NCBI GenBank assembly: GCA_013286315.1
Contig: JABDFX010000016.1
Location: 2,997-39,699, forward strand
From: Bacteroidota bacterium
GTDB lineage: Bacteria; Bacteroidota; Bacteroidia; Chitinophagales; Chitinophagaceae
Length of the DNA stretch: 36,703 nt
Direction of reading: 5' to 3'
The position numbers were made by a program, and so were the translations under genes. A model generated the notes under the pieces. The model was given only the letters and a program-made list of their open reading frames with translations, was not told the origin of the DNA and did not search any database. Shown here one piece after another: positions 1,706 through 31,193 of this stretch. Position 1 is the stretch's first letter. Every line of letters begins with the position of its first letter.

Positions 1706-1858
1706 GCCTAAATCCGAAAGGGCAAAGCGTAAAGCCCCTTTTAGAAAAGAAGCCAGGATCAATTCTGTTTAAAATTATCAGAGAATCTCAAAAACAACAA
1801 AATTCAAGCTTTGACTTAAAAAGCTTTAACCTTTGCCCTTTCGGCTTTGGGCTTAAAG
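1706..1858 (+). repeat. Inverted pair of 4x7-bp degenerate arrays (heptad element 1)
   Basis: Left array: four heptads at 1706-1733, each ending in AAA (gcctAAA, tccgAAA, gggcAAA, gcgtAAA). Right array: TTT triplets at exact 7-bp steps (1825, 1832, 1839, 1846). The arms are inverted copies: 1701-1733 pairs with 1824-1856 at 29 of 33 positions, across a 90-bp spacer. The left arm begins at the comF stop codon and the right arm ends about 16 bp before the next start. It fills the whole gap between two co-directional genes. The function is unknown. Confidence 0.85.
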
Positions 1859-1860
1859 AG

Positions 1861-1868
1861 TATTTTTG
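1861..1868 (+). promoter_or_regulatory. Bacteroidota -7 box (TATTTTTG) directly before the lipoprotein start
   Basis: TATTTTTG matches TAnnTTTG exactly. Only five bases separate it from the ATG at 1874, so a transcript starting at the usual distance would be leaderless or nearly so. No clear TTTG at -33 with 19-bp spacing is present, because the heptad array occupies that position. Confidence 0.45.
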
Positions 1869-1873
1869 TTTAA

Positions 1874-3268
1874 ATGTTCAAATTCCTGCTCTTATCGGTT
1901 TTGGCCGGCGGTCTGATGATTTCCTGTCAAAAGCAATCAAATCAAAACGGGAACGCCCGTCTTTTTCTTTCCGCCGACACAGTTAGTTTTGACACCGTTT
2001 TTGCCGCTACAGCCACTGTAACACAGCAGGTTAAGTTGATAAATAACAATGACTTCGGATTAGCCATCAACTCTATCATCCTGGCCGGTGGGTCCGCGTC
2101 CCCCTTTATTATAAATATTGACGGGAGTCCGGGGCCCGAAGTGACCAACCTAAATATACCAGCCAACGACAGCCTTATCATATTCGTTACAGTCTATATC
2201 CGTGCAGGATCAGGACCCGTCCCGTTTCGTTTGGAAGACAGTATACGGATCAGTTATAATGGCAAAGAACAGTTTGTACAGCTAACCGCCTGGGGCCAAA
2301 ATGCACATTTTCTAAAAAACATGGTGATTCAACATGATACTGTCTGGCCCAACGACCTTCCGTATGTGATTTATGGTAGTCTGACAGTTGACAGTAACGC
2401 GACCCTCACCATACAACCCGGAACACATATATATGTGCACGCAGATGCCCCTATATATGTAGATGGAAGTCTGAAAGTATTGGGTGATTCACTTAATAGC
2501 CAGCGGGTTTATTTTACCGGCGACAGGCTGGATCTTCCATATGCCAGTTATCCGGGCTCCTGGCCCGGTATTTTTTTCAGGCAAAACAGCAGGGATAATG
2601 TAATGAATTATACCGTGCTTCAAAACGGAAACCAGACCCTGGTTTCGGAAGGCCTTAGTACTGATTTGAATCCTAAACTTTCATTAAACCAATGTATCAT
2701 CAATAATTCGCTGGCTGAGGGCATTCTGGCAGTGCAGTCCAGCATTCAAGCTATTAATTGTCTGGTGAGTAACTGTGGACAAAATATCGTCATTGGATTG
2801 GGGGGCGTGTATCAGTTTGAGTATTGCACGGTAGCCTCATTTTCAACAAGCCTGCTTTTTCATCAACAACCTGTGCTGACTGTTTCGAATTCCGGTTTAA
2901 ATGGCAGCCAGATCGTAACCGCCGATCTGAATGCAGGATTTATCAATTGTATTTTCTGGGGAAGTGAAGGCGTTCCGGATGAGGCAGTAATACAAAAGCA
3001 GGGAAGCAATACATTTAAAGTCCTGTTCGATCATTCTATCCTCAAACAGCAAAACTATCCGGCCAATATTGATAGCAATTCATTATGGCTAAATACAGAT
3101 CCGCTATTTATAGCAACCGGAATCCCCCCGAATAATGAATATAATTTCCAGTTGCAAGCGGCTTCACCTGCCGTGGACAGGGGTGTCAATTCCGGAATCA
3201 TCATCGACCTGAATGGTGATCCAAGACCAGCAAATCTCAGCGACCTCGGTTGTTATGAGCGGCAGTGA
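1874..3268 (+). CDS. Secreted lipoprotein with right-handed beta-helix (pectate-lyase-like fold)
   Basis: This 464-residue protein starts with a lipoprotein signal (MFKFLLLSVLAGGLMISC), with the lipid-modified cysteine probably C18, so it should be anchored in the envelope. Residues ~20-150 look like a beta-sandwich of the kind common in secreted Bacteroidota proteins (SADTVSFDTVFA, VTQQVKLINNN). From ~150 on, short repeated strands (LTVDSNATLTIQPGTHIYVH, VDGSLKVLGDS) and an ending of the form SPAVDRGVN..IDLNGDPR are typical of right-handed parallel beta-helix proteins. No catalytic residues could be assigned, so polysaccharide binding or cleavage is only a possibility. The ATG at 1874 is chosen because the signal peptide begins there. 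Confidence 0.85.
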   Translation: MFKFLLLSVLAGGLMISCQKQSNQNGNARLFLSADTVSFDTVFAATATVTQQVKLINNNDFGLAINSIILAGGSASPFIINIDGSPGPEVTNLNIPANDSLIIFVTVYIRAGSGPVPFRLEDSIRISYNGKEQFVQLTAWGQNAHFLKNMVIQHDTVWPNDLPYVIYGSLTVDSNATLTIQPGTHIYVHADAPIYVDGSLKVLGDSLNSQRVYFTGDRLDLPYASYPGSWPGIFFRQNSRDNVMNYTVLQNGNQTLVSEGLSTDLNPKLSLNQCIINNSLAEGILAVQSSIQAINCLVSNCGQNIVIGLGGVYQFEYCTVASFSTSLLFHQQPVLTVSNSGLNGSQIVTADLNAGFINCIFWGSEGVPDEAVIQKQGSNTFKVLFDHSILKQQNYPANIDSNSLWLNTDPLFIATGIPPNNEYNFQLQAASPAVDRGVNSGIIIDLNGDPRPANLSDLGCYERQ

Positions 3269-3286
3269 TTACTCCCCCGATTCTCT

Positions 3287-3294
3287 TAACTTTG
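3287..3294 (+). promoter_or_regulatory. Candidate -7 box (TAACTTTG) for the glutathione peroxidase gene
   Basis: TAACTTTG matches TAnnTTTG. It lies 36 bp before the ATG at 3331, in the 62-bp gap after the lipoprotein gene. No matching -33 TTTG is seen, so confidence is moderate. Confidence 0.45.
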
Positions 3295-3330
3295 ATAGTG
3301 AAACATTGATTATAAAATAAAATATATTTT

Positions 3331-3852
3331 ATGTTAAGATTGTTGTTCATTCCAATTCTGTTTATGATACACTCAAGTGTAAGTGTGTATGATTTTAAAG
3401 TGCCAGCGCTGGATGGCGGTACCATTGACCTGTCAACATACAAAGGGAAAAAATTACTGATCGTAAATACGGCTTCCAAATGCGGTTTTACACCCCAGTA
3501 CGCTGACCTTGAAAAATTGTATGATAAGTATAAAGGCAAACTGGTAATTGTTGGATTCCCGGCCAATGATTTTGGTGGACAGGAACCGGCTACAAATTCT
3601 GAAATCAGTGAGTTTTGTAAGAAGAATTATGGCGTAACATTTCCGCTTGCTGCAAAATCTGATGTAGTGGGTGAAAATACATCCCCCTTATTCAAATATC
3701 TGACGGAAGAAGCCATTAAATTGGGCACACCGGCTCCGGTTATCAAATGGAATTTCACAAAATTCCTGATTGATGAAAACGGAAAACTCATTGGGGTTTA
3801 TAATAGCAAGATCACTCCTATGAGTGACGAAATCACGTCTCACCTCAACTAA
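3331..3852 (+). CDS. Glutathione peroxidase family thiol peroxidase
   Basis: The 173-residue protein reduces peroxides, probably with thioredoxin as electron donor, as known for most bacterial members. The peroxidatic cysteine is C51 in NTASKCGFTPQ. Q84 in FGGQEP and the W-N pair of KWNFTKFL supply the rest of the catalytic tetrad. C96 in EFCKKNYGVTFP is the likely partner cysteine. The usual FPCNQF motif reads FPANDF here, so the cysteine at that place is absent. A hydrophobic N-terminal segment (residues 1-19) suggests export to the periplasm or membrane attachment. The holB-like gene follows after 14 bp. Confidence 0.93.
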   Translation: MLRLLFIPILFMIHSSVSVYDFKVPALDGGTIDLSTYKGKKLLIVNTASKCGFTPQYADLEKLYDKYKGKLVIVGFPANDFGGQEPATNSEISEFCKKNYGVTFPLAAKSDVVGENTSPLFKYLTEEAIKLGTPAPVIKWNFTKFLIDENGKLIGVYNSKITPMSDEITSHLN

Positions 3853-3866
3853 TTCTGGCTAACGGG

Positions 3867-5027
3867 ATGTTATTTAGTCAGGTTATCGGTCAGCAGGAAA
3901 TCAAAGCAAAGCTTCGCAACCTCGTTGAGCATAACAGGTTGAGTCATGCATTGCTGCTGAATGCACCGGAAGGTGCAGGCGGCCTGCCATTGGCATTGGC
4001 TTTTGCTCAATATATCGTTTGTGATAGGGTATCCGGTGTTGATGCAGGTAATCCATTTCCTGCAGAAAGCTGTAATGAATGCCCTTCCTGTCAGAAGGCT
4101 GCGCGGTTAATTCATCCTGATATACATTATGTATTTCCCGTTGTTTCGCGTAAACCGGGCGACAAACCGGTGAGTGCAGATTATATTACCGAATGGCGCG
4201 AATTCATTTCGCTCTATCCTTACGGAACCATTTTCGACTGGCTGTTACAGATCAATGCAGATAATAAACAGGGGAACATTTCCGCCCATGAGTGCAATGA
4301 GATCAACCGTACACTCAGTTTGAAAAGTTTTGAAAGCGGATATAAGATACTCATCATGTGGATGCCGGAATACCTCGGCGATCAGGGAAACAAATTGCTG
4401 AAACTGATTGAGGAACCGCCCCCGGATACGCTTTTCATACTGGTAACTGAAAATGAAGCCCAGATTCTTCCCACCATACTTTCACGGGTGCAAATCATAC
4501 GGCTGCCCAGACCCCAGGTAACCGAAATCCAGGAGGCATTGGTATCCCGGGCAGGTGTACAACCCGAACAGGCCAGACAACTGGCCGCAGTGAGCGAACA
4601 GAATTACCGGGAAGCACTCAGACAATTGCAACATGGACAAGACGACTGGCAGTCGCTATTACGGGAATGGTTAAACGCTGTTCTACGATCAGGACCTGTG
4701 GCTCAGGTAAAATGGGTGGAAGAAATAGCCAAAACGGGCCGCGAAAAACAGAAACAATTTCTGCAGTATTTTAGTCACCTGTTGGAACAGGCCGTCAGGC
4801 TGCGTATGTCGGATGCCGCATCGGCAGATCTGCCGGATTCTGAAAGGGATTTTGCACTGAGACTAAATAAGATCACTGACCTGTCAGCCCAGAGGTCCAT
4901 AGCAGAAGAAGTTAATAAATCGATTTATTACATTGAACGCAACGCACACGCTAAAATGCTTTTTCATGCGTTGACTATTCGTCTCTATCATATCCTGGCA
5001 AACCGGGAAGAGGCGGTAGTGACTTAG
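3867..5027 (+). CDS. holB: DNA polymerase III subunit delta prime (clamp loader)
   Basis: Delta prime is the stator subunit of the clamp loader, which places the sliding clamp on DNA. The 386-residue protein opens with the typical FSQVIGQQEIKAKL and SHALLLNAPEGAG. The P-loop is degenerate (APEGAGGLPLALA, no lysine), as is usual for this non-hydrolysing subunit. A zinc module is visible as C52, C69, C72 and C75 (SCNECPSCQKAARLIHPD). LLKLIEEPPPDTLFILVTE and LSRVQIIRLPRP are conserved AAA+ segments. The C-terminal third is divergent. A PSP1/RicT gene follows directly, an arrangement I recall from other Bacteroidota. Confidence 0.92.
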   Translation: MLFSQVIGQQEIKAKLRNLVEHNRLSHALLLNAPEGAGGLPLALAFAQYIVCDRVSGVDAGNPFPAESCNECPSCQKAARLIHPDIHYVFPVVSRKPGDKPVSADYITEWREFISLYPYGTIFDWLLQINADNKQGNISAHECNEINRTLSLKSFESGYKILIMWMPEYLGDQGNKLLKLIEEPPPDTLFILVTENEAQILPTILSRVQIIRLPRPQVTEIQEALVSRAGVQPEQARQLAAVSEQNYREALRQLQHGQDDWQSLLREWLNAVLRSGPVAQVKWVEEIAKTGREKQKQFLQYFSHLLEQAVRLRMSDAASADLPDSERDFALRLNKITDLSAQRSIAEEVNKSIYYIERNAHAKMLFHALTIRLYHILANREEAVVT

Positions 5028-5034
5028 AAAGGAG

Positions 5035-5042
5035 TATATTTG
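5035..5042 (+). promoter_or_regulatory. Candidate -7 box (TATATTTG) for the ricT-like gene
   Basis: TATATTTG fits TAnnTTTG exactly and lies just after the delta prime stop codon. It argues that the true start of the next gene is the ATG at 5070, since the TTG codon at 5040 lies inside the box. No -33 TTTG is visible. Confidence 0.45.
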
Positions 5043-5069
5043 TCAACTTGCTGGTTAATATATACATAT

Positions 5070-6377
5070 ATGGGATGTTCTAATTGTGGCACTGCCGATG
5101 GCAAGCCAGGAGGATGCCAAAGCCATGGAAGCTGCGGATCCGGAAGTTGTAATAGAATGAATGTATATGACTGGCTCTCAAACCTGCCGATTCATGATCC
5201 CGCTACAGAATGCCGGGTTATGGAGATAAGTTTCAGTCAGGGAAGTCGTAAAGATTTTTTTCGCAATACAACTACACAGATTTTTGAAAAAGGTGAGATG
5301 GTGAGCGTAGAAGGTGTAAGTGGTTTTGATGTTGGCGAAGTAAGTATGACGGGAGAGTTAGTCAGAATACAGATGAAAAAGAAGTCGGTTGAAGAGTTTC
5401 ATCCGGACATGAAAAAAGTGCTTCGTCGCGCATCGGATCGTGATCTGGACCTGCTCAAGCAAAACAAAGCCCGTGAAAAGGAGGCTGTGATCCGTTCGCG
5501 CGCCATTTCGCGCCAGTTAAAACTGGACATGAAAGTGTCGCAGGTGGAAATTCAGGCCGATGGCCGCAAAGCGACCTTCTATTATATTGCTGACGACCGG
5601 GTAGATTTCAGGGAACTTATAAAAATTTTCGCGTCAGAATTCCGGGTAAAAGTAGAAATGCGTCAGATCGGCGCAAGGCAGGAAGCCGGAAAAGTAGGTG
5701 GCATCGGCAGTTGCGGGCGTGAACTCTGTTGTTCAACCTGGCTTACTGATTTTAAATCTGTAAATACCACTGCAGCCCGTTACCAGAACCTTTCAATCAA
5801 TCAAAGTAAACTCAGCGGTCAGTGCGGCAGGTTAAAATGCTGCCTGAACTACGAACTGGATACTTATCTCGATGCACTGCAACAGTTTCCAGATAATGCC
5901 GACACTTTGCAAGTCGCAAAAGGTACGGCCCTGCTGGTTAAAAAGGATATTTTCAAATACCTGATGTGGTACGTGTTACCTGACAGCAATAAGCAATACC
6001 CGCTGCTGATCGAGAGGGTCAAGCAAATAAAAAATCTCAACAAGCAGAATATTATTCCGGATGATCTGGGCGCTGTTGAAGCAACCGGTAAACCAAAAGA
6101 AGAACTGGTGAACGTTGATCTGACTGGACAATTCAGTTTGAAAACGCTGGATAGTGCAGACAAGAAAAAAAGACACAACCGGCCCGGACCCCCTCAGCAG
6201 AGAAGGGATAACAAACCTCCGCAACAACAACGAGATAACAGGCCAGCACAACAACAGAAAGATAACAGACCCCCTCAACAATCAAAAGACAACAGACCAC
6301 CACAACAACAAAGAGACAACAGGCCGCCGTCTCCACCGAGAGAAAACAGACCGCCGCCTCCTATTAAGAAACCATAA
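5070..6377 (+). CDS. ricT: PSP1-domain protein, RicT (YaaT)-like, with repetitive Pro/Gln tail
   Basis: The PSP1 domain with the cysteine set GSCGRELCCSTW and GQCGRLKCCLNYE (about residues 210-260) identifies a RicT/YaaT-type protein. In Bacillus subtilis RicT works with RicA and RicF in an Fe-S complex that promotes mRNA maturation by RNase Y; the role in Bacteroidota is not established. The N-terminus is also rich in Cys and Gly (MGCSNCGTADG, GSCGSGSCN), which may be a second metal-binding segment. The last ~65 residues form five imperfect 9-residue repeats around (R/K)DN(R/K)PPQQ, followed by KKP; such a tail is probably disordered and RNA- or protein-binding. The start is the ATG at 5070. 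The hydrolase gene begins 3 bp after the stop. Confidence 0.88.
   Translation: MGCSNCGTADGKPGGCQSHGSCGSGSCNRMNVYDWLSNLPIHDPATECRVMEISFSQGSRKDFFRNTTTQIFEKGEMVSVEGVSGFDVGEVSMTGELVRIQMKKKSVEEFHPDMKKVLRRASDRDLDLLKQNKAREKEAVIRSRAISRQLKLDMKVSQVEIQADGRKATFYYIADDRVDFRELIKIFASEFRVKVEMRQIGARQEAGKVGGIGSCGRELCCSTWLTDFKSVNTTAARYQNLSINQSKLSGQCGRLKCCLNYELDTYLDALQQFPDNADTLQVAKGTALLVKKDIFKYLMWYVLPDSNKQYPLLIERVKQIKNLNKQNIIPDDLGAVEATGKPKEELVNVDLTGQFSLKTLDSADKKKRHNRPGPPQQRRDNKPPQQQRDNRPAQQQKDNRPPQQSKDNRPPQQQRDNRPPSPPRENRPPPPIKKP
6199..6366 (+). repeat. 27-bp imperfect coding repeats (9-residue units) in the ricT-like gene
   Basis: Units of the form RDN-K/R-PPQQ-Q/S recur every 27 bp: RRDNKPPQQ, QRDNRPAQQ, QKDNRPPQQ, SKDNRPPQQ, QRDNRPPSP, then a more diverged PRENRPPPP. 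The copies share the RDNRPP core at DNA level, so copy number could change by slippage. Confidence 0.8.
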
Positions 6378-6380
6378 ACC

Positions 6381-7235
6381 ATGAAAGGCTTTAAGAAGAA
6401 AATGCTACTGCTTTCCGGATTATTCCTGACGAGCTGGCTTCTCTTAGCCCAAAGCTGTATGAGTTTTCGTAAATCGGATGCGGATGCAAAAACCGAATTT
6501 GCGAAAGACCATGTAACACTGCGCACTGCAACCATGGAAGTGGAAGGAAGGCATATACATTATGCCATGACGGGCAGCGATTCCTTACCCACTCTTTTTT
6601 TTGTTCATGGTTCCCCCGGAAGCTGGGATGCTTTTGCAGAATACATGAAAGATTCATTGCTGCTGCAAAAATTCAGAATGGTATCCGTTGACCGTCCGGG
6701 TTTCGGATTCAGTGATTATGGTCAGCCACAACATCTCGATGTACAATCTTTTTGGATCAGCAGACTTTTCTATCTGCTGGCCAATCATAAACCCATGTAC
6801 CTGGCCGGACATTCATTAGGAGGTCCGATGGTCATAAAATTGGCAGCCGACAATCCGCAGACTTTTTCCGGAATCGTTGTCATTTCCGGATCCATAGATC
6901 CCAAGGAAGAAAAACCAGAGAAATGGAGGCCATGGTTGTATAAAACCCCTTTAAATTATTTGGTTCCCGGCGCGATGCGGCCTTCCAATGAAGAATTGTG
7001 GTATCTGAAGAAAGATCTTGTACAGCTCGAAAAAGATTTTCCCAAAATAACCTGTCCGGTTTATTTTATTCACGGGGCTATGGACACCTGGGTGCCACCG
7101 GGTAATGTAGAATATGGTAAAAGAATGTTGGTGAATGCACCTCTTGTGGATGTAACATTGATCCCGGGTGCCAATCACTTTATTCCCTGGTCAAAATTCA
7201 CGGAAATCAGAACCGTATTGTTAAAATTGCATTAA
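6381..7235 (+). CDS. Alpha/beta-hydrolase fold lipoprotein
   Basis: The 284-residue enzyme has a complete alpha/beta-hydrolase core. The HGSPGSWDAF segment forms the oxyanion loop (HG at 76-77). The nucleophile is S145 in AGHSLGG, the acid is D235 in GAMDTWVPP and the base is H266 in GANHFIPW. An N-terminal signal with a possible lipobox (LLAQSC, C26) suggests an exported, lipid-anchored hydrolase. The substrate cannot be read from the sequence; esterase, lipase or haloalkane-dehalogenase-like activity are all possible. It starts 3 bp after the ricT-like gene and is probably co-transcribed with it. Confidence 0.9.
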   Translation: MKGFKKKMLLLSGLFLTSWLLLAQSCMSFRKSDADAKTEFAKDHVTLRTATMEVEGRHIHYAMTGSDSLPTLFFVHGSPGSWDAFAEYMKDSLLLQKFRMVSVDRPGFGFSDYGQPQHLDVQSFWISRLFYLLANHKPMYLAGHSLGGPMVIKLAADNPQTFSGIVVISGSIDPKEEKPEKWRPWLYKTPLNYLVPGAMRPSNEELWYLKKDLVQLEKDFPKITCPVYFIHGAMDTWVPPGNVEYGKRMLVNAPLVDVTLIPGANHFIPWSKFTEIRTVLLKLH

Positions 7236-7281
7236 GTAATGAAAGCACAAAGAACCCCTTTACAATACATTTCCTTTTTAC

Positions 7282-7289
7282 TAAATTGC
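7282..7289 (+). promoter_or_regulatory. Possible variant -7 box (TAAATTGC) before the Bax-inhibitor-like gene
   Basis: TAAATTGC looks like the usual box with one T missing. A TTTA lies exactly 19 bp upstream (7259-7262), close to the -33 TTTG. The same octamer family (TAnnTTGC) recurs at 16776, 18416 and 36040, each ahead of a gene start. Confidence 0.3.
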
Positions 7290-7309
7290 AAGTCCTAAAC
7301 ATATAAACT

Positions 7310-8059: not shown

Positions 8060-8087
8060 TTGTTCCAGTCGGGCAATAAAAAAAACT

Positions 8088-8134
8088 AAGCCCTGAAAGT
8101 TATCTGGATTCAAACTTTCGGGGCTTTTTTATTT
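8088..8134. terminator. Bidirectional intrinsic terminator between convergent genes
   Basis: Stem arms aagccctgaaagtt (8088-8101) and aactttcggggctt (8113-8126) pair with one mismatch around an 11-nt loop and are followed by a T run. The opposite strand also has a T-rich tract (A run at 8077-8085), so it can serve the AIM24-family gene too. A partial copy of the right arm, ttcggggcttttt, recurs at 8169-8181. Confidence 0.88.
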
Positions 8135-8207
8135 ACGATTGTCTTTATCGATGTATCAATTATCGCCGTTCGGGGCTTTTTATTTTGTCGAGTTGCTCCG
8201 AATGAAA

Positions 8208-9005: not shown

Positions 9006-9052
9006 TACGTAAGCTTTAAATATTAAATTCAGATCATCATAATTAACCACAA

Positions 9053-16698: not shown

Positions 16699-16831
16699 GT
16701 TGACGGTTGACGGTTGACGGTTGGCGGACTGATAAATTGCCACTAAGTGGTATTTTATTTTTAGCTCGGTGAAATTAATTTGCATCTATCAGATAACTGT
16801 CACCCTCAACTGTCAACTGTCAACCGTCAAC
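16699..16831 (+). repeat. Inverted pair of 4x7-bp arrays (heptad element 2, GTTGACG type)
   Basis: Left array 16699-16726: three exact copies of gttgacg and one gttggcg. Right array 16804-16831: cctcaac, tgtcaac, tgtcaac, cgtcaac, the reverse complement of the same heptad. The arms match at 24 of 28 positions across a 77-bp spacer. The left arm starts 5 bp after the DUF502 stop and the right arm ends 21 bp before the next ATG (16853). Confidence 0.9.
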
Positions 16832-16852
16832 CGATTAGCAGCAACACGCTCC

Positions 16853-18362: not shown

Positions 18363-18396
18363 GTGTGGTGAGAGTCCCCTTCCACGCTCACCACAC
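18363..18396. terminator. Perfect 10-bp stem-loop between the unknown gene and serC
   Basis: gtgtggtgag (18363-18372) and ctcaccacac (18387-18396) pair perfectly around a 14-nt loop, 3 bp after the stop codon of the unknown gene. There is no T run behind it, so it may be a weak or factor-aided terminator or an mRNA-stabilising 3' hairpin. Confidence 0.55.
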
Positions 18397-18442: not shown

Positions 18443-19495
18443 ATGATACATAATTTCAATGCAGGTCCAAGCATTTTGCCGAAAGAGGTTTTTGATGAAG
18501 CCGCCAAAGCCATTTTGAATTTCAGGGATACCGGCCTTTCTATTCTGGAAATCGGACACCGGACTGCCCTGTTTCAATCTGTCCTGGATGAGGCGGTACT
18601 GTTGGCAAAGGAACTCATGAAACTGGATGGAGACCACGAGGTATTATTCCTGCACGGCGGCGCCACTACCCAGTTCTTCCAGATGCCTATGAATCTGTTG
18701 AACGAAAACCAGACTGCCGCCTACCTCGACTGTGGAACCTGGGGAACAAAAGCCATTAAGGAAGCCCGCGTATTTGGCAACGTTGATGTTGTCGCTTCCT
18801 CAAAGGATAAAAATTATACCTATATACCAAAGGGATATGTAATCCCGGCTGATGCAGCCTATTTTCATTATACCACCAATAATACGATTGAGGGAACGGA
18901 AATGTATTCCATTCCGGAAACAAATATTCCGCTGATAGCAGACATGAGCAGTGATATTCTGAGTTATGAAACGGATTACAATCGTTTCGCCCTGATCTAT
19001 GCAGGTGCCCAGAAAAATATAGGTGCGGCGGGGGTGAATATGGTGGTCCTGCGTAAGGATATTCTGGGAAAGGTAGATCGCAAACTGCCGGGAATGATGG
19101 ATTACCGGAAACACATCGAAGCCGGTTCCATGCTGAATACTCCTCCTGTTTTTGCCATTTATGTTTGCCTGCTCACACTGCGCTGGCTAAAAAAAATCGG
19201 CGGTGTGGGAGCTATTGAAAAAATAAACAGAGCGAAAGCGGATCTGCTTTATAAAACCCTGGACGAAAAAGAAGGTTTTCAGCCAACAGTCGCAAAAGAA
19301 GACAGAAGCAGGATGAATGTGGTATTCCTTATTAACGAACCGGAACTCGAGAAGAAATTTCTCGAAGCATGCAGGGAGCAACAAATGATTGGTGTGAAGG
19401 GCCATCGAAGTGTTGGCGGATACCGGGTTTCCCTCTATAATGCCCTTCCGCTTGAAAGTGTAAAAGCACTGAGCGAACTTATTTATCAACTTTAA
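18443..19495 (+). CDS. serC: Phosphoserine aminotransferase
   Basis: SerC converts 3-phosphohydroxypyruvate to phosphoserine with glutamate (second step of serine synthesis), and it also acts in pyridoxine synthesis in many bacteria. The 350-residue protein begins with the typical HNFNAGPSILP. It has the HGGATTQF phosphate/cofactor segment, TTNNTIEGTE, IADMSSDILS and the PLP lysine K191 in YAGAQKNIG. GHRSVGGYRVSLYNAL near the end completes the family pattern. The DUF1015 gene starts 6 bp downstream. serA (phosphoglycerate dehydrogenase), which often lies between these two in related genomes, is absent here. Confidence 0.97.
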   Translation: MIHNFNAGPSILPKEVFDEAAKAILNFRDTGLSILEIGHRTALFQSVLDEAVLLAKELMKLDGDHEVLFLHGGATTQFFQMPMNLLNENQTAAYLDCGTWGTKAIKEARVFGNVDVVASSKDKNYTYIPKGYVIPADAAYFHYTTNNTIEGTEMYSIPETNIPLIADMSSDILSYETDYNRFALIYAGAQKNIGAAGVNMVVLRKDILGKVDRKLPGMMDYRKHIEAGSMLNTPPVFAIYVCLLTLRWLKKIGGVGAIEKINRAKADLLYKTLDEKEGFQPTVAKEDRSRMNVVFLINEPELEKKFLEACREQQMIGVKGHRSVGGYRVSLYNALPLESVKALSELIYQL

Positions 19496-23628: not shown

Positions 23629-26232
23629 ATGACCGAAGAAAGCAAGAGACTGCAAGATCCGGCCTGGAGAAACTGGGGACCTTATCTAAGCGATCGCCAA
23701 TGGGGAACTGTTCGCGAGGATTACAGTGCTGACGGATCTGCCTGGGAAGCCACTTCCCATGAAATGGCCCGCAGCAAAGCCTGGCGCTGGGGAGAAGACG
23801 GCCTGGGCGGGATGGCTGATTCTAAATTACAACTATGCATTGCCGTTAGCTTGTGGAACGGGCAGGATCCGATTTTGAAGGAAAGGTATTTCGGACTGAC
23901 GGGTAACCAGGGCAATCACGGGGAAGATGTCAAGGAAATATATTATTTTCTGGATGCAACGCCCAGCCACTCCTACCTGAAAATGCTGTATAAATATCCC
24001 CAGGCTGCATTCCCCTATGAAGAGTTGCTGGCTGAAAACGGCCTTCGGAGTAAAAAAGATCCTGAATATGAAATTCAGGACACGGGTATATTTAATGAGA
24101 ACAGATATTTTGATGTTTTTATTGAATACGCAAAAGATTCGCCAGAAGACATCCTGCTAAAGATTACGGTTTTTAACCGTGGCCCGGAAGCCGCTCCTCT
24201 GCGTGTTTTGCCAAATATCTGGTTCAGAAATAACTGGAACCTGGGATATTCACATCCGAAGCCGGGACTGGAAAGGGAAACAGACAACAGTATCATCATA
24301 CAGCATGAAATTTTGGGCCATCGCAGGTTCTATGCTGAAAATCCCGTGGAAGTCCTTTTCTGCGATAATGAAACCAACGATGAAAAATGCTACCTGACTC
24401 CTAACAAAAATGTTTGCTATTATAAAGACGGTATCAACAATTATATACTGCACGGCGCAGCCAGCGTGAACCCGGGTCAGAGTGGTACGAAAGCTGCTTT
24501 CCATTTCAATAAAACCATCGGAGCGGGTGAATCGGAAACATTTCGGTTACGCATGAGCGTGTCAGAGCTTAAAAATCCATTTAAAGAATTCGACAGTATA
24601 TTTTCATCCCGGATTGAGGAAGCAAATGCTTTTTATGCGGAGAAACAAACCAACCTGCCCACGGATGAATTAAAAACCATACAACGTCAGGCGTACGCCG
24701 GCATGATCTGGTGTAAACAAATATATTATTACAATGTGGAGAAATGGATTACAGGAGATCCGGCATTTCCACCGCCCCCGCCCGAACGAAAAAACGGAAG
24801 GAACCATCAGTGGCGGCACCTGAATAGTTCCGACATCATGTCGATGCCTGACAGCTGGGAATATCCCTGGTTTGCAGCCTGGGACCTGGCATTTCATTGC
24901 ATATGTTTCGCAGATCTGGATGCCGGCTTTGCAAAACATCAGTTAACCCTGCTCACGCATGAATGGTTTATGCATCCGAACGGACAGCTCCCGGCTTATG
25001 AATGGGCTTTTTCGGATGTAAACCCTCCGGTTCATGCATGGTCAACCTGGAAGGTATACAGCATTGATAAAACCGCTACTGGTAAGGGTGACCTGAAATT
25101 CCTGGAGACTATATTTCTCAAATTACTCATGAATTTTACCTGGTGGGTAAACAGAAAAGATGAACAGGGTAATAACATTTTTGAAGGCGGCTTCCTGGGA
25201 ATGGATAATATCGGACTCTTCGACCGGAATACGCCGCTGCCGGACGGATCCATTCTGGAACAATCTGATTCAACCAGCTGGATGTGTATGTATTCGCTCA
25301 ACATGATGCGAATCGCATTGGAACTCGCTAAAACAAATGATGTTTATCAGGACATGGCCACGAAATTCTTTGAACATTTCCTGTATATCGCACATGCCAT
25401 GTTTGCCGGTGGTGATCAGGATACGGGTCTTTGGGATGATGTGGATGAATTTTATTATGACGCCATCCAGAAATCTGACGGAAAATTCCAGAAATTAAAG
25501 ATTCGATCCATGGTCGGACTGATTCCGCTGCTGGCCGTTGAAATTCTGGACGATGATCTGTTGAAAGGTCAGAAAGAATTTACGGAACGATTATACTGGT
25601 TCCTGAATAACAGGCCGGAACTTGCGAAACTGGTTTCGAAATGGGGTGAAAAAGGAAAAGATGAGAAACATCTTTTATCTCTTTTGCGCGGTCACCGCAT
25701 GAAACGAATCCTGTACAGGATGCTGGATGCAAGCGAATTTCTGAGCGATCATGGTTTGAGGGCGCTTTCAAAATATCATGAAGCAAATCCATTTGTTTTA
25801 CAAATAGATGGTATGTGGTTCTCTGTTCAGTATACTCCAGGAGAATCGGATACCGGATTATTCGGAGGAAATTCCAATTGGCGGGGACCAGTGTGGATGC
25901 CTGTGAATTACCTGATCATAGATGCCCTTAAAAGGTTTCATGATTACTATGGTGATGATTTCCGAATTGAATATCCTACTCATTCGGGCAATCTTTTATC
26001 CCTGAAGGAAATCGCAGATAAACTGGCCGAAAGAATCATATCATTATTTATTCGGGATGCAAATGGAAGCCGGCCGGTCTATGGTGATCAACCCCTTTTT
26101 CAAAAAAATCCAGACTTTAAAGACTATATCCAGTTTTTTGAGTATTTCCACGGCGATACCGGTAAGGGCCTGGGCGCATCTCATCAAACAGGCTGGACTG
26201 GCCTGGTTGCACGTCTTTTGACAGTCAGATAG
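23629..26232 (+). CDS. MGH1/GH63-like glycoside hydrolase (glucosidase)
   Basis: The 867-residue protein matches the bacterial 'glucosidase' group with an (alpha/alpha)6 catalytic domain related to GH63 and mannosylglycerate hydrolases. Visible signatures are WGPYLSDRQWGTVREDYSADGSAW at the start, the central WEYPWFAAWDLAFHCI, HPNGQLPAYEWAFSDVNPPVHAW, EGGFLGMDNIGLFDR, and FGGNSNWRGPVWMPVNYLII near the end. In GH63 enzymes the acids in such segments are catalytic; the D in AAWDLA and the E in PAYEWAF are the likely pair, by analogy only. No signal peptide is present, so it acts in the cytosol, perhaps on a storage or compatible-solute sugar. Confidence 0.9.
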   Translation: MTEESKRLQDPAWRNWGPYLSDRQWGTVREDYSADGSAWEATSHEMARSKAWRWGEDGLGGMADSKLQLCIAVSLWNGQDPILKERYFGLTGNQGNHGEDVKEIYYFLDATPSHSYLKMLYKYPQAAFPYEELLAENGLRSKKDPEYEIQDTGIFNENRYFDVFIEYAKDSPEDILLKITVFNRGPEAAPLRVLPNIWFRNNWNLGYSHPKPGLERETDNSIIIQHEILGHRRFYAENPVEVLFCDNETNDEKCYLTPNKNVCYYKDGINNYILHGAASVNPGQSGTKAAFHFNKTIGAGESETFRLRMSVSELKNPFKEFDSIFSSRIEEANAFYAEKQTNLPTDELKTIQRQAYAGMIWCKQIYYYNVEKWITGDPAFPPPPPERKNGRNHQWRHLNSSDIMSMPDSWEYPWFAAWDLAFHCICFADLDAGFAKHQLTLLTHEWFMHPNGQLPAYEWAFSDVNPPVHAWSTWKVYSIDKTATGKGDLKFLETIFLKLLMNFTWWVNRKDEQGNNIFEGGFLGMDNIGLFDRNTPLPDGSILEQSDSTSWMCMYSLNMMRIALELAKTNDVYQDMATKFFEHFLYIAHAMFAGGDQDTGLWDDVDEFYYDAIQKSDGKFQKLKIRSMVGLIPLLAVEILDDDLLKGQKEFTERLYWFLNNRPELAKLVSKWGEKGKDEKHLLSLLRGHRMKRILYRMLDASEFLSDHGLRALSKYHEANPFVLQIDGMWFSVQYTPGESDTGLFGGNSNWRGPVWMPVNYLIIDALKRFHDYYGDDFRIEYPTHSGNLLSLKEIADKLAERIISLFIRDANGSRPVYGDQPLFQKNPDFKDYIQFFEYFHGDTGKGLGASHQTGWTGLVARLLTVR

Positions 26233-26245
26233 CTCTTTATTAAAC

Positions 26246-26253
26246 TATCTTTG
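26246..26253 (+). promoter_or_regulatory. Candidate -7 box (TATCTTTG) for obgE
   Basis: This is an exact TAnnTTTG match followed by C, 18 bp before the GTG start of obgE. The expected -33 TTTG is not at 19 bp; the nearest one (26217-26220) is too far at 25 bp. Confidence 0.45.
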
Positions 26254-26271
26254 CAGCCCGAATAAAATAAA

Positions 26272-27276
26272 GTGGAAAAAAGCAATTTCGTAGACCAGAT
26301 CCGGGTTTTTTGTAAGAGCGGACATGGCGGAGCCGGCAGTAAACATTTTATGCGCACAAAATACAATGCCCTCGCAGGTCCCGATGGTGGCGATGGCGGA
26401 CGGGGCGGTCATATTATTCTTCGCGGAAATAAAAATACCTGGACCCTCCTTTCACTCAGATATTATAAAAATGTACTGGCTGAAGACGGGGAAGCCGGAA
26501 GCGGTAATAATTCCAGCGGACGATTTGGAAAGGATATTTATATCGATGTTCCCCTTGGTACGATTGCCAGAGATGAGGTCACCGGATCGATTGAAGGAGA
26601 AATACTGGAGGATGGTCAGGAGATCATCTGGCTGAAAGGTGGTCGCGGTGGCCTGGGCAACGCGCGTTTTGCCACACCTACGAATCAGGCACCCGAACAT
26701 GCGCAGCCGGGAGAAGACGGAGTGGAAGGATGGAAGGTGCTGGAACTAAAAGTACTCGCCGATGTGGGCCTTGTGGGATTCCCGAATGCCGGAAAATCAA
26801 CCCTTCTTTCAGTAATGACCGCCGCAACACCTAAAATTGCGGATTATGCATTTACCACATTGACCCCACAACTTGGCATGGTGGAATACCGGGATGGAAA
26901 GAGTTTTTGTATAGCCGATCTGCCCGGAATTATTGAAGGCGCGGCAGAAGGAAAAGGCCTGGGTCACCGGTTTTTACGGCATATCGAAAGGAACGTAGCT
27001 CTTTTATTTATGATTCCGGCAGACAGTCCGGATCATCGCAAAGAATTTGAAATACTCCGTAACGAACTGGAACAATATAATCCGGAATTGCTGGATAAAC
27101 GTTTTGTGATTGCCATCAGCAAATCTGATCTGCTGGATGAAGAATTGATTGTTGAAATCAGAAAAGAATTGCCAGCCGACATCCCGAATATTTTTATTTC
27201 TTCGGCAACGCATAAAGGTATACAGGCACTGAAGGATTTGCTATGGTCCATTATGAATGAAGACGACAAAAAATAA
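26272..27276 (+). CDS. obgE: GTPase Obg/CgtA
   Basis: Obg is an essential GTPase in late 50S ribosome assembly and stress response. The glycine-rich Obg domain (1-160) includes [15 protein letters not shown] and [20 protein letters not shown]. The G domain shows G1 GFPNAGKS (169-176), switch segment [12 protein letters not shown]3 DLPG (216-219) and G5 SSAT. G4 reads SKSD (283-286) where NKxD is usual, a form I recall from other Bacteroidota. With 334 residues it lacks the C-terminal OCT domain of some homologs. The start is GTG at 26272, directly before EKSNFVDQI; no nearby ATG fits. kdsB follows after 5 bp. Confidence 0.96.
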
Positions 27277-27281
27277 ATTCC

Positions 27282-28004
27282 ATGAATTGCATCGCGATGA
27301 TTCCGGCCAGATATGCTTCAACTCGTTTTCCTGCGAAACTGATGCAATTGCTGGGAAAGAAAACGGTCATCCGCCATACATACGACAACACGGTAAAAAC
27401 CGGCCTCTTTGATAAGGTGATTGTAGTAACGGATAGCCCGGTGATTTTTGAAGAAATTAAATCGAATGGCGGCGATGTGATGATGAGTGTAAAAAGCCAT
27501 GAAAGCGGAAGTGACCGAATAGCGGAAGCCGTGGAGAATCTGGATACTGATATCGTTGTAAATGTTCAGGGAGACGAGCCCTTCGTTCAAAAAGCTCCGC
27601 TGGAGAAGTTACTGGATGTTTTCAGGCACGATCATCACGTTCAGGTGGCCTCCCTGATGCAGGTGATTAAAAACAAAAAGAATGTTCAGGACCCGAATTT
27701 TGTCAAAGTGGTTGTGGATCTGCAGATGAATGCACTTTTTTTTAGCCGGAGTTTAATTCCTTATCCCCGGGATCCTTCTGTGCCCATCCATTATTATGAG
27801 CATATTGGTGTGTATGCATTCAAGAAACAGGCATTGTTGAACTTTACCCGATGGCCCGTAACAACTTTGGAGGCGGCTGAAAAAATCGAATGTCTTCGAT
27901 ATCTTGAGCATGGAATACCTTTAAAAATGGTACTTACTGAATATATGGGTATTGAAATCGATACTCCCGAAGACCTGAAGCTGGCGATTCAAAAACTGGG
28001 TTGA
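27282..28004 (+). CDS. kdsB: 3-deoxy-manno-octulosonate (or 8-amino-Kdo) cytidylyltransferase
   Basis: KdsB activates Kdo with CTP to CMP-Kdo for attachment to lipid A. The 240-residue protein has the nucleotide-binding start [15 protein letters not shown], the [10 protein letters not shown] segment, NVQGDEPF with the metal-binding Asp, and the ending [14 protein letters not shown]. In Shewanella a KdsB homolog uses 8-amino-3,8-dideoxy-Kdo. Because a KdnB-like oxidase lies 1.1 kb downstream, the same substrate is possible here; sequence alone does not decide. obgE precedes it by 5 bp and the ROK kinase follows by 26 bp. Confidence 0.95.
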
Positions 28005-28030
28005 TCAACTGAAATATTAAACGACGTTAT

Positions 28031-28942
28031 ATGAAACAAACTATGTGGGGCATCGACCTGGGAGGAACCAAGGTTGAAGGAATTATCCTGAGCGGAGACA
28101 AAGAGCCGGAAACCCTGATCAGAACCCGGGTGGATACTGAGGCTGCCAGGGGATATGACCACGTGATCGGACAGATTGAAAAACTGGTCAATAAGATGAA
28201 GGCGGAATCAGGCCTACAGCCTGCGAAAATAGGATTTGGTACTCCCGGAATTCTCGATCCCATTTCCCATACTTTAAAAAATTCAAATACAACTATATTA
28301 AATCATCAACCTTTAAAAAAGGATCTTGAGGAGAAACTGCAGCTGCCCATCATCCTGGCCAATGACGCAAACTGTTTTGCTTTGGCAGAGACAACCTGGG
28401 GCGCTGTGAAAAAAAAGTCACCGCATGCGCGGGTGGTATTTGGGATCATCCTGGGTACCGGTGTCGGTGGTGGCCTTGTCATTGACGGAAAAATCTGGGA
28501 AGGCCATCATGGTATCGCCGGGGAATGGGGGCATAATTTTCTGGATGAATCAGGTGGTCCCTGTTATTGCGGAAAAGTAGGATGTGTGGAAAAATTAATT
28601 TCCGGTCCGTCATTACAAAAATTTTATGAATCCATTGCCGGAACTAAAAAGACCCTGAAAGAAATCGTCATGCAAAAAGAAACCGATCCATATGCCCGGC
28701 ACACACTTGACCGGCTTACTCATTTCTTTGGTAAGGCCGTTTCTTCCATCACGAATATGCTGGATCCGGATATTATTGTAGTCGGTGGCGGAGTTGGAAA
28801 TATTGAAGAAATCTATACTGAGGGGGTTGAGTCCTTAAAACATTTTATTTTTAATAATTATTGTACCGTACCGGTAGTCAGACCTGAACTGGGCGATAGT
28901 GCGGGGGTATTTGGTGCAGCAGCGTTGACGCATAATGTTTGA
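28031..28942 (+). CDS. ROK-family sugar kinase
   Basis: The 303-residue protein belongs to the ROK group (glucokinases, N-acetyl-hexosamine kinases). It shows the ATP motif DLGGTK (9-14), the catalytic D112 in LANDANCFALAE, the glycine loop GTGVGGGLV, and the zinc site H168 with C178, C180 and C185 (GHNF then CYCGKVGC). VVGGGVGN near the end is the adenosine motif. Sugar specificity cannot be read reliably; glucose or an amino sugar are likely. It follows kdsB by 26 bp and its stop codon is directly followed by a repeat-rich gap. Confidence 0.93.
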   Translation: MKQTMWGIDLGGTKVEGIILSGDKEPETLIRTRVDTEAARGYDHVIGQIEKLVNKMKAESGLQPAKIGFGTPGILDPISHTLKNSNTTILNHQPLKKDLEEKLQLPIILANDANCFALAETTWGAVKKKSPHARVVFGIILGTGVGGGLVIDGKIWEGHHGIAGEWGHNFLDESGGPCYCGKVGCVEKLISGPSLQKFYESIAGTKKTLKEIVMQKETDPYARHTLDRLTHFFGKAVSSITNMLDPDIIVVGGGVGNIEEIYTEGVESLKHFIFNNYCTVPVVRPELGDSAGVFGAAALTHNV

Positions 28943-29101
28943 GGAGCAGGATGCAGGAGGCAGGAGGCGAATGCAAAGGCTAAGGCTAAAGCTCTTAATG
29001 TTTGAGGAACGGTGAATGAGGAATGAACTGATAAAAGAAATGCTAATTCAAAGAGATTAATTAAAGAAGCCTTAGGCCTTAGCCTTGGGCCTTAAGCTTA
29101 A
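28941..29101 (+). repeat. Complex heptad-repeat element (heptad element 3)
   Basis: Starting inside the ROK stop codon come four heptads (gaggagc, aggatgc, aggaggc, aggaggc; 28941-28968). Then follow an aaggct-type array (28975-28998), four heptads carrying GAA (tgaggaa, cggtgaa, tgaggaa, tgaactg; 29003-29030), and an inverted gccttag array at 29069-29099 with 6-7-bp steps. An 11-bp perfect inverted repeat joins 28976-28986 to 29076-29086. Thirteen bases, taatgtttgagga, occur at 28933-28945 and again at 28996-29008, exactly 63 bp (9x7) apart. The right arm ends about 5 bp before the next ATG. Confidence 0.8.
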
Positions 29102-29105
29102 AAAT

Positions 29106-30179
29106 ATGAAATTCAGGAATTTCAAAATGGTCAGTTATGTCGTTTATGGTCGTGGAAGTTTTAATCAGCTGGATGAAATACTGGTTCCCCATAGAAAAGA
29201 CAGCGCCCCGATGATTTTTTTGCTGGATCATTTTTTCGAGAATAAATCCCTGGCGACCAGGGTGCCGGTTCGCGGGAAGGATAAAATCATTTTTGCTGAT
29301 GTCACCCATGAACCTAAAACCAAACAGGTCGATGCATTGGCCAATCTGCTGAAAGATGAATTCGGTTCAGTCAGCGGCGTCATTGGAATTGGGGGCGGAT
29401 CGGTGATGGATTTGGCGAAAGCCGTTTCATTAATGATGAATAATCCGGGATCTTCCGCTGATTATCAGGGATGGGATCTGGTGAAAAATCCGGGCGTTTA
29501 TAAAGCAGGCATACCTACATTAAGCGGAACCGGAGCCGAAGTTTCCAGGACAACCGTACTTACAGGACCTTCCCGAAAACTGGGAATGAATTCGGATTTT
29601 ACACCCTTCGATCAGATCGTTCTTGACCCGGAACTCACTGTCAATGCTCCGGTGAATCAAAGATTTTACACAGGAATGGACTGCTATATTCACTGCATTG
29701 AAAGTTTAACCGGTACTTTCCTGAATGAATTCAGCAAATCCTATGGAGAGAAAGCATTGAATCTCTGTCAAGAAGTTTTTCTTGGTGACGGAACATGGGG
29801 ACCTGAACAGGATGATAAGCTGATGATGGCATCCTATGCCGGTGGCATGAGTATCGCCTATTCGCAGGTTGGTGTTGCACATGCCGTGAGTTACGGTTTG
29901 GGATACCTGTTAGGAACCAAACACGGCGTTGGAAATTGTATTGTATTCGACAAACTGGAGGAGTACTATCCCGAAGGTGTAAAAGAATTCAAGCAAATGG
30001 TAAAGAAAAATAAAATTGAAATCCCGCAAAATATAACAAAGGGCCTAAGTGACGAACAGTTTGATACCATGATCAATGTTTCTCTTGGCATGAAACCTTT
30101 ATGGGAAAACGCCCTCGGAGCGGATTGGGAAAAGATCATGACGAGGGATAAGTTAAGAGCATTATATGAAAGACTCTAA
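29106..30179 (+). CDS. kdnB: Iron-containing alcohol dehydrogenase, KdnB-like (Kdo 8-oxidase)
   Basis: The 357-residue protein is a group III metal-dependent alcohol dehydrogenase: NAD-binding GIGGGSVMDLAKA (94-106), SGTGAEVSRTTVL, and metal ligands D192, H196, H259 and H273 in TGMDCYIHC, GVAHAVSYG and GTKHGVGN. The pattern (YGRGSFNQLDEIL, DYQGWDLVKNPG, FYTGMDCYIHCIESL, MSIAYSQVG) is that of KdnB, which in Shewanella oxidises Kdo at C8 before the aminotransferase KdnA makes 8-amino-Kdo. The nearby kdsB supports a Kdo role; no KdnA is in the window, so the assignment is partly inferred. The ATG at 29106 is used; the frame upstream lies in the repeat element. Heptad elements flank the gene on both sides. 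Confidence 0.8.
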   Translation: MKFRNFKMVSYVVYGRGSFNQLDEILVPHRKDSAPMIFLLDHFFENKSLATRVPVRGKDKIIFADVTHEPKTKQVDALANLLKDEFGSVSGVIGIGGGSVMDLAKAVSLMMNNPGSSADYQGWDLVKNPGVYKAGIPTLSGTGAEVSRTTVLTGPSRKLGMNSDFTPFDQIVLDPELTVNAPVNQRFYTGMDCYIHCIESLTGTFLNEFSKSYGEKALNLCQEVFLGDGTWGPEQDDKLMMASYAGGMSIAYSQVGVAHAVSYGLGYLLGTKHGVGNCIVFDKLEEYYPEGVKEFKQMVKKNKIEIPQNITKGLSDEQFDTMINVSLGMKPLWENALGADWEKIMTRDKLRALYERL

Positions 30180-30180
30180 T

Positions 30181-30312
30181 AAGCCTAAAGCCTAAAACTT
30201 TTGTTGATCAGTATTTCATTATTTCTTTTATCTTTTAATGTATACTATTTATCATTTTTCATTTATCACTAAAAATAAGTTATGGGCCCTAGGCCTTAGG
30301 CTTTGGTCATAA
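30181..30312 (+). repeat. Inverted pair of heptad arrays (heptad element 4, GCCTAAA type)
   Basis: Left: aagccta, aagccta, aaacttt (30181-30201), one base after the kdnB-like stop. Right: ggcccta, ggcctta, ggctttg, gtcataa (30285-30312), ending 2 bp before the next ATG. 30181-30194 pairs with 30290-30303 at 13 of 14 positions, with a 95-bp spacer. The spacer itself holds three heptads, tttatca, tttttca, tttatca (30248-30268). Confidence 0.82.
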
Positions 30313-30314
30313 GA

Positions 30315-31169
30315 ATGAGAGTCGCATGTATCATAATGGCTCATAAAGAGCCGCAACAGATTGAGCGTTATATAAAAAAATTTATCGGGATACCATTCGA
30401 TTTCTATATTCATCTCGATAAAAAAATTAACCGCGAATCGTTTGATTACCTTGCAAAAATCCCCCAGGTTTACTTTGTTAGTAAACGAATCCCGGTAAAA
30501 TGGGCGTCCTATAATTTTTTGAACGCGGAGATACAATCGTTCAGGGAAGTGCTGGCCAGTGGAATTCCTTATGATTTTATCAGTATAATGAGCGGACAGG
30601 ATTATCCCATCAAACCCGTCTCAGAAATTTTTGAGTTCCTGGAAAAAAAACCAGAAAAAAATTTTATTTCCTTTGAAGATGATGGTGTATGGTGGAATCA
30701 AGCGATCTCACGCATCAACAAATATCATTTTACAAATTTCGAATTTCGCGGCAGATATTGGATTCAGCATGTACTGAATAGTCTGCTCCCGGCCAGAAAG
30801 TTTCCCTTGCCCTATACACTCTACGGAGGGCCCAGGGCTATGTGCATGACCATTTCAAAAGATTGCGCTGCCTATATACTTGACTTCATTGAATCAAATA
30901 AAAGGCTGAGAAGGTATCTCCGTTTCACCTGGGGAGCGGATGAATTTGTCATTCCGACATTAATCATGAATTCAAAATTCAGGGAAACCGTGATCAATGA
31001 TAATTTCTATTATATCGATTGGTCAAAAGGCGGCGCTAGTCCGAAAACGCTGACTATAGAAGATTATAACTTATTGCTTGCATCGGATAAAATGCTCGCG
31101 AGGAAATTTGATATAAAAGTCGATTCGAAAATACTTGATTTACTGGATGACCGAATCGTTGACCGATGA
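30315..31169 (+). CDS. GT14 (core-2/I-branching type) glycosyltransferase
   Basis: The 284-residue protein resembles the core-2/I-branching beta-1,6-N-acetylglucosaminyltransferase family. Visible marks are the start ACIIMAHKEPQQIERYI, FYIHLDKKI, the conserved FISIMSGQDYPIKP with its acceptor/donor loop, YGGPRAMCMTISKDCA, and the FTWGADEFVIPTLIMNS region whose acidic residues are catalytic in relatives. It has no membrane segment and should act at the cytosolic face, probably on a cell-surface glycan. The donor sugar is unknown; GlcNAc or xylose are used by relatives. The ATG at 30315 is used. The last codons and stop lie in a 7-bp repeat array. Confidence 0.87.
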   Translation: MRVACIIMAHKEPQQIERYIKKFIGIPFDFYIHLDKKINRESFDYLAKIPQVYFVSKRIPVKWASYNFLNAEIQSFREVLASGIPYDFISIMSGQDYPIKPVSEIFEFLEKKPEKNFISFEDDGVWWNQAISRINKYHFTNFEFRGRYWIQHVLNSLLPARKFPLPYTLYGGPRAMCMTISKDCAAYILDFIESNKRLRRYLRFTWGADEFVIPTLIMNSKFRETVINDNFYYIDWSKGGASPKTLTIEDYNLLLASDKMLARKFDIKVDSKILDLLDDRIVDR

Positions 31170-31193
31170 CCGATGACCGATGACGGATGACCG
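31159..31193 (+). repeat. Five tandem 7-bp repeats overlapping the GT14 stop codon (heptad array 5)
   Basis: ttgaccg, atgaccg, atgaccg, atgacgg, atgaccg run from 31159 to 31193, so the stop codon (31167-31169) is part of the array. A further atgaccg at 31147-31153 codes for the Asp-Asp-Arg end of the protein. The gap to the convergent PPIase gene is only 49 bp and no inverted partner is seen. Confidence 0.88.

Follow-up and report, generated by a model that had tools for sequence, protein, structure and literature searches.

The window analysed here is a stretch of 36,703 nt (G000:C16:2997-39699) from a soil bacterium of the Chitinophagaceae, whose metagenome-assembled genome (MAG) amounts to 3,314,637 bases (3.31 Mb) in 202 contigs and is 58.8% complete. 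The window's intergenic gaps part genes whose order relatives keep. Four of these gaps hold two inverted arms, here called palindromes 1 to 4, and a fifth holds a single array of 7-bp units (Table 1); all five were located where the original prediction, an earlier reading of the same DNA, had placed them. The aminotransferase gene at 18443-19495 has its named relatives mostly in Chitinophagaceae MAGs and isolates, Puia, Terrimonas and Flavitalea included, and the two nearest are 89% and 87% identical.

Table 1. Repeat features of the window, with positions counted from its first letter.
Feature	Position	Strand	Sequence or unit	Context
Palindrome 1, left arm	1702..1735	+	TAAGCCTAAATCC...	Inverted repeat; overlaps TAA stop of phosphoribosyltransferase-domain gene (Pfam)
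Palindrome 1, right arm	1823..1856	+		17 nt 5' of ATG 1874
Palindrome 2, left array	16699..16727	+	Four GTTGACG units	5 nt 3' of DUF502 gene stop
Palindrome 2, right array	16795..16833	+	Inverted units CAACTGT/CAACCGT	About 20 nt 5' of ATG 16853
AGGAGGC array	28942..28968	+	AGGAGGC	At ROK gene stop; right arm does not match
Palindrome 3, left arm	28976..28991	+	AAGGCTAAGGCTAAAG	Inverted repeat
Palindrome 3, right arm	29071..29086	+		Inverted repeat; weakest of the four by fold
Palindrome 4, left arm	30180..30195	+	TAAGCCTAAAGCCTAA	Immediately 3' of iron-containing alcohol dehydrogenase (Fe-ADH) gene stop
Palindrome 4, right arm	30296..30311	+		Adjoins start of Core-2/I-branching gene
Single array	31157..31193	+	GATGACC	Overlaps stop 31167-31169; no partner here
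Short palindrome, D1 match	18363..18396	+	GTGTGGTGAG/CTCACCACAC	32 bp at 94% to non-heptad family D1

Window gaps were each compared with 600 dinucleotide shuffles of the same gap, which sets a floor of 0.0017 on P. Palindrome 2 reaches this floor both as an inverted repeat and for period 7, with paired arms of 25 nt at 92% (16699-16723/16807-16831) lying 83 nt apart and an RNA fold z-score of -9.5. Palindrome 1 has arms of 34 nt at 88%, 87 nt apart (inverted-repeat P 0.0017, period-7 P 0.012, fold z -3.8); the arms are inverted as had been described, but the element is a quasi-palindrome in which the period of 7 is weak. Palindromes 3 and 4 stand out less strongly against shuffles than 1 and 2. 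Palindrome 3 has arms of 16 nt at 88%, 79 nt apart (inverted-repeat P 0.005, period-7 P 0.0017), and its RNA fold is no better than that of shuffles (z -0.9). Here too the inverted arms stood, but the AGGAGGC array next to the stop, taken earlier as the left member of the pair, does not match the right arm; the left arm that does begins 33 nt past the stop and reads as 6-mers. Palindrome 4 has arms of 16 nt at 81%, 100 nt apart (inverted-repeat P 0.012, period-7 P 0.003, fold z -2.5). The single array stands out by its period alone (period-7 P 0.0017, inverted-repeat P 0.82), and the orthologous gap contains paired arrays of other units in two relatives, G007 and G005. Two control gaps gave period-7 P values of 0.53 and 0.82, and control gap 8060-8207 holds an ordinary terminator hairpin (inverted-repeat P 0.017).

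The scan for period 7 that the original prediction had proposed was carried out over 1,617,448 of the 3,314,637 bases of the assembly, in which a home-made gene caller based on codon usage placed 1359 genes and 827 gaps of at least 40 bp (137 convergent, 498 codirectional and 192 divergent). With a period array score of at least 12, period-7 arrays were found in 129 of the 827 gaps against a shuffled mean of 1.0, period-8 arrays in 45 and period-6 arrays in 12, with shuffled means of about 1 each. Periods 4, 5, 9 and 10 are at chance level, periods 11, 12 and 13 lie a little above it, in 12, 9 and 8 gaps, and period 14, in 101 gaps, is the harmonic of 7; that the shuffled values are about 1 at every period suggests one N-filled gap in the set. 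Within coding DNA, where very short genes were passed over, period-7 arrays were detected in 8 of the 1359 genes and in 0 of 827 length-matched coding fragments. Inverted repeats scoring at least 14 are present in 90 gaps, with none in shuffled gaps or in the 827 coding fragments, and at a score of at least 12 the counts are 113 gaps, 7 shuffled and 3 coding. Arms are periodic in 70 of these 113 (52 with period 7, 16 with period 8 and 2 with period 6); the other 43 have no period-6, -7 or -8 arms, 3 of them having period 11.

The pairing of arrays lies far above chance, as had been anticipated: inverted matches join the two halves in 42 of 54 gaps with two arrays, against a mean of 7.7 and a maximum of 16 in 2000 permutations, and direct-orientation matches in 5, against 1.2 permuted (gaps above 600 bp or with N, and arrays above 60 bp, were set aside). 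Polarity was scored for six named unit sets (AAAGCC, AACGC, GTTGRC, two octads and GGAGGC; AATTGT was omitted); units of the genome include GTTGACG, AAAGCCT and AGTATGGA. With X the unit as it reads in left arms, the left half carried X 115 times and its complement 22 times, and the right half the complement 81 times and X 13 times. Polarity is kept in 196 of 231 array calls, across convergent, codirectional and divergent gaps; as X was defined from left arms, the overall sign follows by construction, but its constancy across gap types does not. Divergent gaps show the same direction (X to complement 8:1 on the left, 4:11 on the right), and no unit served as main left-arm unit in both polarities. 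We take polarity to belong to the palindrome rather than to the genes.

A test of arm register, in which 62 of 64 fitted better in register, suffers from a bias, since the search itself picks the best register, and each arm was compared instead with same-family partners from other gaps. The own partner is clearly the better one for the octads (0.91 v 0.73) and for GTTG (0.83 v 0.51, n=4). Mirrored order of unit variants thus holds in some families and not demonstrably in all, because the cross-gap test is clear for these two alone.

Placement follows the stop codon. In 38 codirectional periodic elements the left arm adjoins the upstream stop, as had been reported for the window, at a median distance (dL) of 3 nt, and dL is smaller than the distance from the right arm to the next gene's called start (dR) in 34 of 38 (p 6e-7). 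The companion claim, that right arms sit next to start codons, describes the window and does not generalise: the median dR is 33.5 nt with a range of -1 to 194, the gene caller being weakest on starts, so that distances to starts are less sure than those to stops. Loops of the codirectional elements measure 5 to 133 nt. Of 23 convergent elements, 21 have each arm no more than 27 nt from a stop, and a periodic pair occurs in 23 of 137 convergent, 38 of 498 codirectional and 9 of 192 divergent gaps. Stops and C-termini beside two elements sit as they do in relatives, so that these elements lie against genes without cutting into them; truncation of genes by element insertion was rejected on the same match of C-termini at two loci.

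The original prediction had also held that architecture is kept while sequence is free, unlike REP (repetitive extragenic palindromic) elements or MITEs (miniature inverted-repeat transposable elements). This could not be upheld: many gaps share a small number of 7- and 8-bp families, each of which keeps one polarity, and some elements are mutual copies in different gaps. Two octad elements, L017:19507-19607 and L211:12060-12173, have common arms and a common 20-nt loop core, and D1 is a dispersed family of non-periodic palindromes whose members, among the matches listed, are about 75-94% alike over 32-151 bp in different gaps. Several D1 members in convergent gaps are flush with stops (the members being L024:6220-6379, L019:6645-6789, L179:7847-8007 and L021:17382-17536), and D1 ends resemble TAGTGTGGTGAA / TTCACCACACTA. 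D1-like sequence is also found within the loop of an AAGGCT element and of an AACGCGT element; nested palindromes of this kind, with D1-like sequence inside hexamer or heptamer arms, lie at L017:626-965 and L003:6783-6991. Dispersal is directly evident for some families, in the octad and D1 copies, and would probably extend to the rest; loop matches among heptad elements are few and weak.

The same gap was found to hold different units in related species, the DUF502 gap (16694) being one example. This gap, whose 3' neighbour matches S1/P1 nuclease below threshold, holds inverted pairs of GTTGACG in our genome, GTTGGCM in G017 and TTGACCGATG in G015 (here with a weak arm of 10 bp); the three can be aligned at the right boundary and over some stretches of the loop. 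Pairs are also present in G026 and L107, and none were seen in G007 or G005. After 2 of 50 loci had been dropped, 48 rows were usable, our own genome not being among them; in 9 of these, from 7 distinct genomes, the first 260 nt hold an inverted repeat scoring at least 10. This cut is a loose one, attained by about 5% of shuffled gaps of our genome. Downstream of a 474-aa gene, 6 of 29 rows reach 12; our genome, G007, G005 and G014 have period-7 arms, G020 and G025 plain palindromes, and G017 and G015 unpaired arrays. At a convergent locus the heptamer pair is in our genome alone, and 4 of 30 rows reach 12, one with N in its loop. L286 (G014) has, downstream of the gene, a non-periodic, near-perfect palindrome of 49 bp with a 16-nt loop.

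Period 7 is the commonest period in relatives as well: over 693 gaps in 80 named loci it was found in 25 gaps (20 loci) and in none after shuffling, with period 8 in 6 gaps and period 9 in 2. Inverted repeats of at least 14 occur in 53 of these gaps, 7 of them with period-7 arms, and among further relatives represented by 11-40 kb each, ten have a non-N period-7 gap and the rest none. The period is common, and our genome carries a load (129/827 gaps) several times as high as the named relatives do. Within the order, three GTTGRCN units in a row were matched in 25 of 198 genomes, our own included, and in 17 of 105 genera, with a reversed-pattern control that is not independent, since the reversed pattern reads nearly the same unit. 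Three AAAGCCY units were matched in 2 of the 198 genomes, our own, in which the three-unit AAAGCC pattern matches 40 times, being one of them. In G222, which belongs to a different family within the order, very long AGTAGGG-type arrays follow stops at L330:18573-19013 and L333:1813-2267, and shorter TCCCTCA arrays lie between them; the sequence is too little for counts.

Given these arrays, their pairing, polarity and placement, the copies across some gaps and the different units in the same gap of relatives, all of them observed, we consider it about an even bet (probability near 0.5) that the elements are non-coding palindromic repeats dispersed through intergenic DNA in the manner of REP elements or MITEs, with arms of tandem 7-bp (also 8-bp, rarely 6-bp) units and a symmetry held at the level of DNA. 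REP elements and BIMEs (bacterial interspersed mosaic elements) are intergenic palindromes, often placed after stops, with several families per genome, and the elements here are likewise dispersed, intergenic and present in many copies; they differ in having arms of tandem 7/8-mers and larger loops. STRR (short tandemly repeated repetitive) sequences of cyanobacteria are intergenic 7-bp tandem repeats like our arrays, which are mostly intergenic too (129/827 gaps against 0/827 coding fragments); to our knowledge STRR are not described as inverted pairs with loops. The shared inverted ends and body at different sites that mark a MITE are found in the octad pair and in D1, loop matches of heptad elements being few and weak. 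A further Bacteroidota element that joins tandem repeats and inverted ends in intergenic DNA is the BrickBuilt MITE of Porphyromonas gingivalis, in which a 23-nt unit is enclosed by small inverted ends (PMC4596501); in the present elements the arms themselves are the tandem repeats. Titles and opening lines of abstracts, among the matches listed in searches of the open-licence literature, gave no description of inverted pairs of heptamer arrays.

Several results weigh against this interpretation. Few of the heptad loops resemble each other, and these do so weakly, which is not the look of a single unit that has been copied. A clean empty site with target duplication was not found, the nearest relatives available being too diverged; the flanks of two octad elements were inspected by eye. 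Ortholog searches gave mostly distant matches with L211:12174-13130 and matches in 14 of 32 genomes with L017:12157-13638. No transposase was identified for the elements, and the 58.8% complete assembly has no PF01797 match and hence no sign of a Y1 transposase of the REP type (REP-associated tyrosine transposase, RAYT), which speaks against an identity with RAYT/REP. Site conservation over the orthologous gaps of the window is weak (8/24 v 5/46, p 0.048), and 5 of those 8 cases are one ordinary terminator gap. Own partners are slightly better than cross-gap ones for AAAGCC (0.82 v 0.73) and barely so for AATTGT (0.83 v 0.80) and AACGC (0.75 v 0.71); the own partner beats all others in 3/4 GTTG, 4/12 octad, 2/14 AAAGCC, 1/12 AATTGT and 0/8 AACGC cases. 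Lastly, our genome's 23 non-periodic codirectional inverted repeats lean towards G-T over A-C mismatches (10:5), and adding them to the mismatch pool described below gives 41:38 (Fisher p 0.009 against terminator-like hairpins).

Several unit families coexist in the genome, each in a prevailing polarity that puts unit X in the 5' arm and the complement of X in the 3' arm, whichever the strand or the type of gap. If the elements are dispersed DNA palindromes, they would settle and persist in intergenic DNA without promoter signal, and for that reason lie flush with stop codons. Copying may spread units between gaps, slippage may then lengthen arrays and swap their units, and template switching in a transient DNA hairpin may rewrite one arm from the other, so that arms would change together without selection on an RNA stem; the symmetry is probably kept up by the last two processes. 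Template switching is described as creating and mending hairpin arms in PMC8794818, a mutation process akin to the one proposed here, though shown there for RNA genes and not for bacterial intergenic tandem arrays. In its strongest form the scheme would make these self-renewing DNA palindromes, whose place and stem-loop persist across species divergence with both arms rewritten in new 7-mers by slippage and template switching within the hairpin, giving whole-arm compensatory change without RNA selection; we offer this form tentatively, and regard it as doubtful.

A simpler account, which we think unlikely, has each palindrome made independently in place by 7-mer replication slippage and local template switching, with nothing moving. 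It would explain why period 7, in a variety of units, outnumbers the other periods in the sampled relatives (the counts over 693 gaps given above) and why few heptad loops are alike, and a slippage preference for 7 nt was proposed by Mrazek (2007), as told in PMC4679880. Against it, one genome has the same few units in many of its gaps (three-unit AAAGCC matches 40 times here and occurs in just one other of 198 genomes), one polarity prevails, and the octad and D1 copies have common loops.

Selection of the pairs as long-range RNA stems at mRNA 3' ends, which insulate or stabilise transcripts, as the original prediction suggested, or terminate them, and which leave the sequence free as long as pairing holds, appears improbable to us. 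Left arms abut stops and convergent gaps are richest in elements, stems are predicted for three of the window's palindromes by the fold scores above, and within one gap the two arms vary jointly from species to species, with one double compensatory change counted by eye between G007 and G005 at locus A; the G-T lean of our non-periodic repeats also points this way. Selected mRNA pairing should, however, tolerate sense-strand G-U more than A-C mismatches, and G-T:A-C was 16:17 in our 38 periodic codirectional elements and 15:16 in relatives' 65 codirectional inverted repeats without T-tract, periodic or not (1:2 in their 12 with one), against 38:12 inside the T-tract in 146 terminator-like hairpins from the same loci (GT 24, TG 14, AC 10, CA 2; 48:16 in 106 before T-tract correction). 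Terminators are expected to be A-rich on their 5' sides and T-rich on their 3' sides, which should favour GT and AC alike, and the excess appears in both comparable ratios (24:10 and 14:2). The difference from terminator-like hairpins has a Fisher p of 0.004 for the pooled 31:33 and of 0.018 for our periodic 16:17 alone. A T-tract (at least four T) follows the arm in 2 of 38 codirectional elements, with a background of 10%, and polarity is the same in divergent gaps. Many relatives have no such repeat at the same gap (39 of 48 rows score below 10 at the DUF502 gap, and scores stay under 12 in 23 of 29 rows downstream of the 474-aa gene and in 26 of 30 at the convergent locus), and ordinary intrinsic terminators are present in the window and in relatives and are different. 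A dispersed DNA palindrome fits these counts better than an mRNA-end stem, which they disfavour.

Heptamer direct repeats of TAACTGA are intergenic and sporadic in Bacteroidetes, Cyanobacteria and Beggiatoaceae (MacGregor, 2015; PMC4679880); in F. litoralis 12 of 14 sets run forward before starts and one set of seven is reversed just after a stop, and a regulator was proposed for the repeats upstream of start codons. They share with our elements the intergenic tandem heptamers and a polarity that fits the CAACTGT-type units, but consist of one unit in direct repeats and one indirect, and in our genome the arrays are not direct ones before starts: they come as inverted pairs (42/54) of several units, anchored at stops. 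By analogy, the units might be sites of a DNA- or RNA-binding protein, a nucleoid protein or a translational regulator, paired for bridging, an idea favoured by the prevailing polarity and by the resemblance of CAACTGT before starts to the 'forward' rule of TAACTGA, but very improbable given that at least six unit families with 7- and 8-bp periods would require several proteins and that starts are not the anchor.

Paired changes in stems are usually read as selected RNA structure. Since so many stems here have arms that differ together between species, and the periodic ones lack a G-U signature, dispersed palindromes of this kind would form a natural test set for covariation made by mutation, as well as a system open to counting, in which to ask why intergenic repeats of this sort most often have a unit of 7 bp.

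Other classes of element were considered and set aside. Intrinsic terminators call for a short-loop GC stem followed by a T-tract, which the T-tract count and the loop lengths given above do not show. Some units resemble the 7-bp core sites of integron attC, and the left end likewise follows a stop, but all matches to the integron integrase model TIGR02249 in the 58.8% complete assembly fall below the curated cut-off, and the conserved order of genes flanking the window's gaps also disfavours this identity. Counts of the promoter motif TAnnTTTG are uninformative: loops, over 1826 bp, have 3 in sense and 0 in antisense direction, and codirectional gaps, over 113 kb, have 119 and 42. Promoter and terminator matches in window positions 28000-32000 are no more than in shuffles, and the window has 0 Rfam matches at gathering score. 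An ordinary intrinsic terminator with stem, 11-nt loop and T-tract lies at window positions 8088-8126 in a convergent gap, where relatives have unrelated hairpins, several with T-tracts. A tandem repeat of 27/54 bp occupies window positions 6207-6352, at the end of the coding frame 5040-6377.

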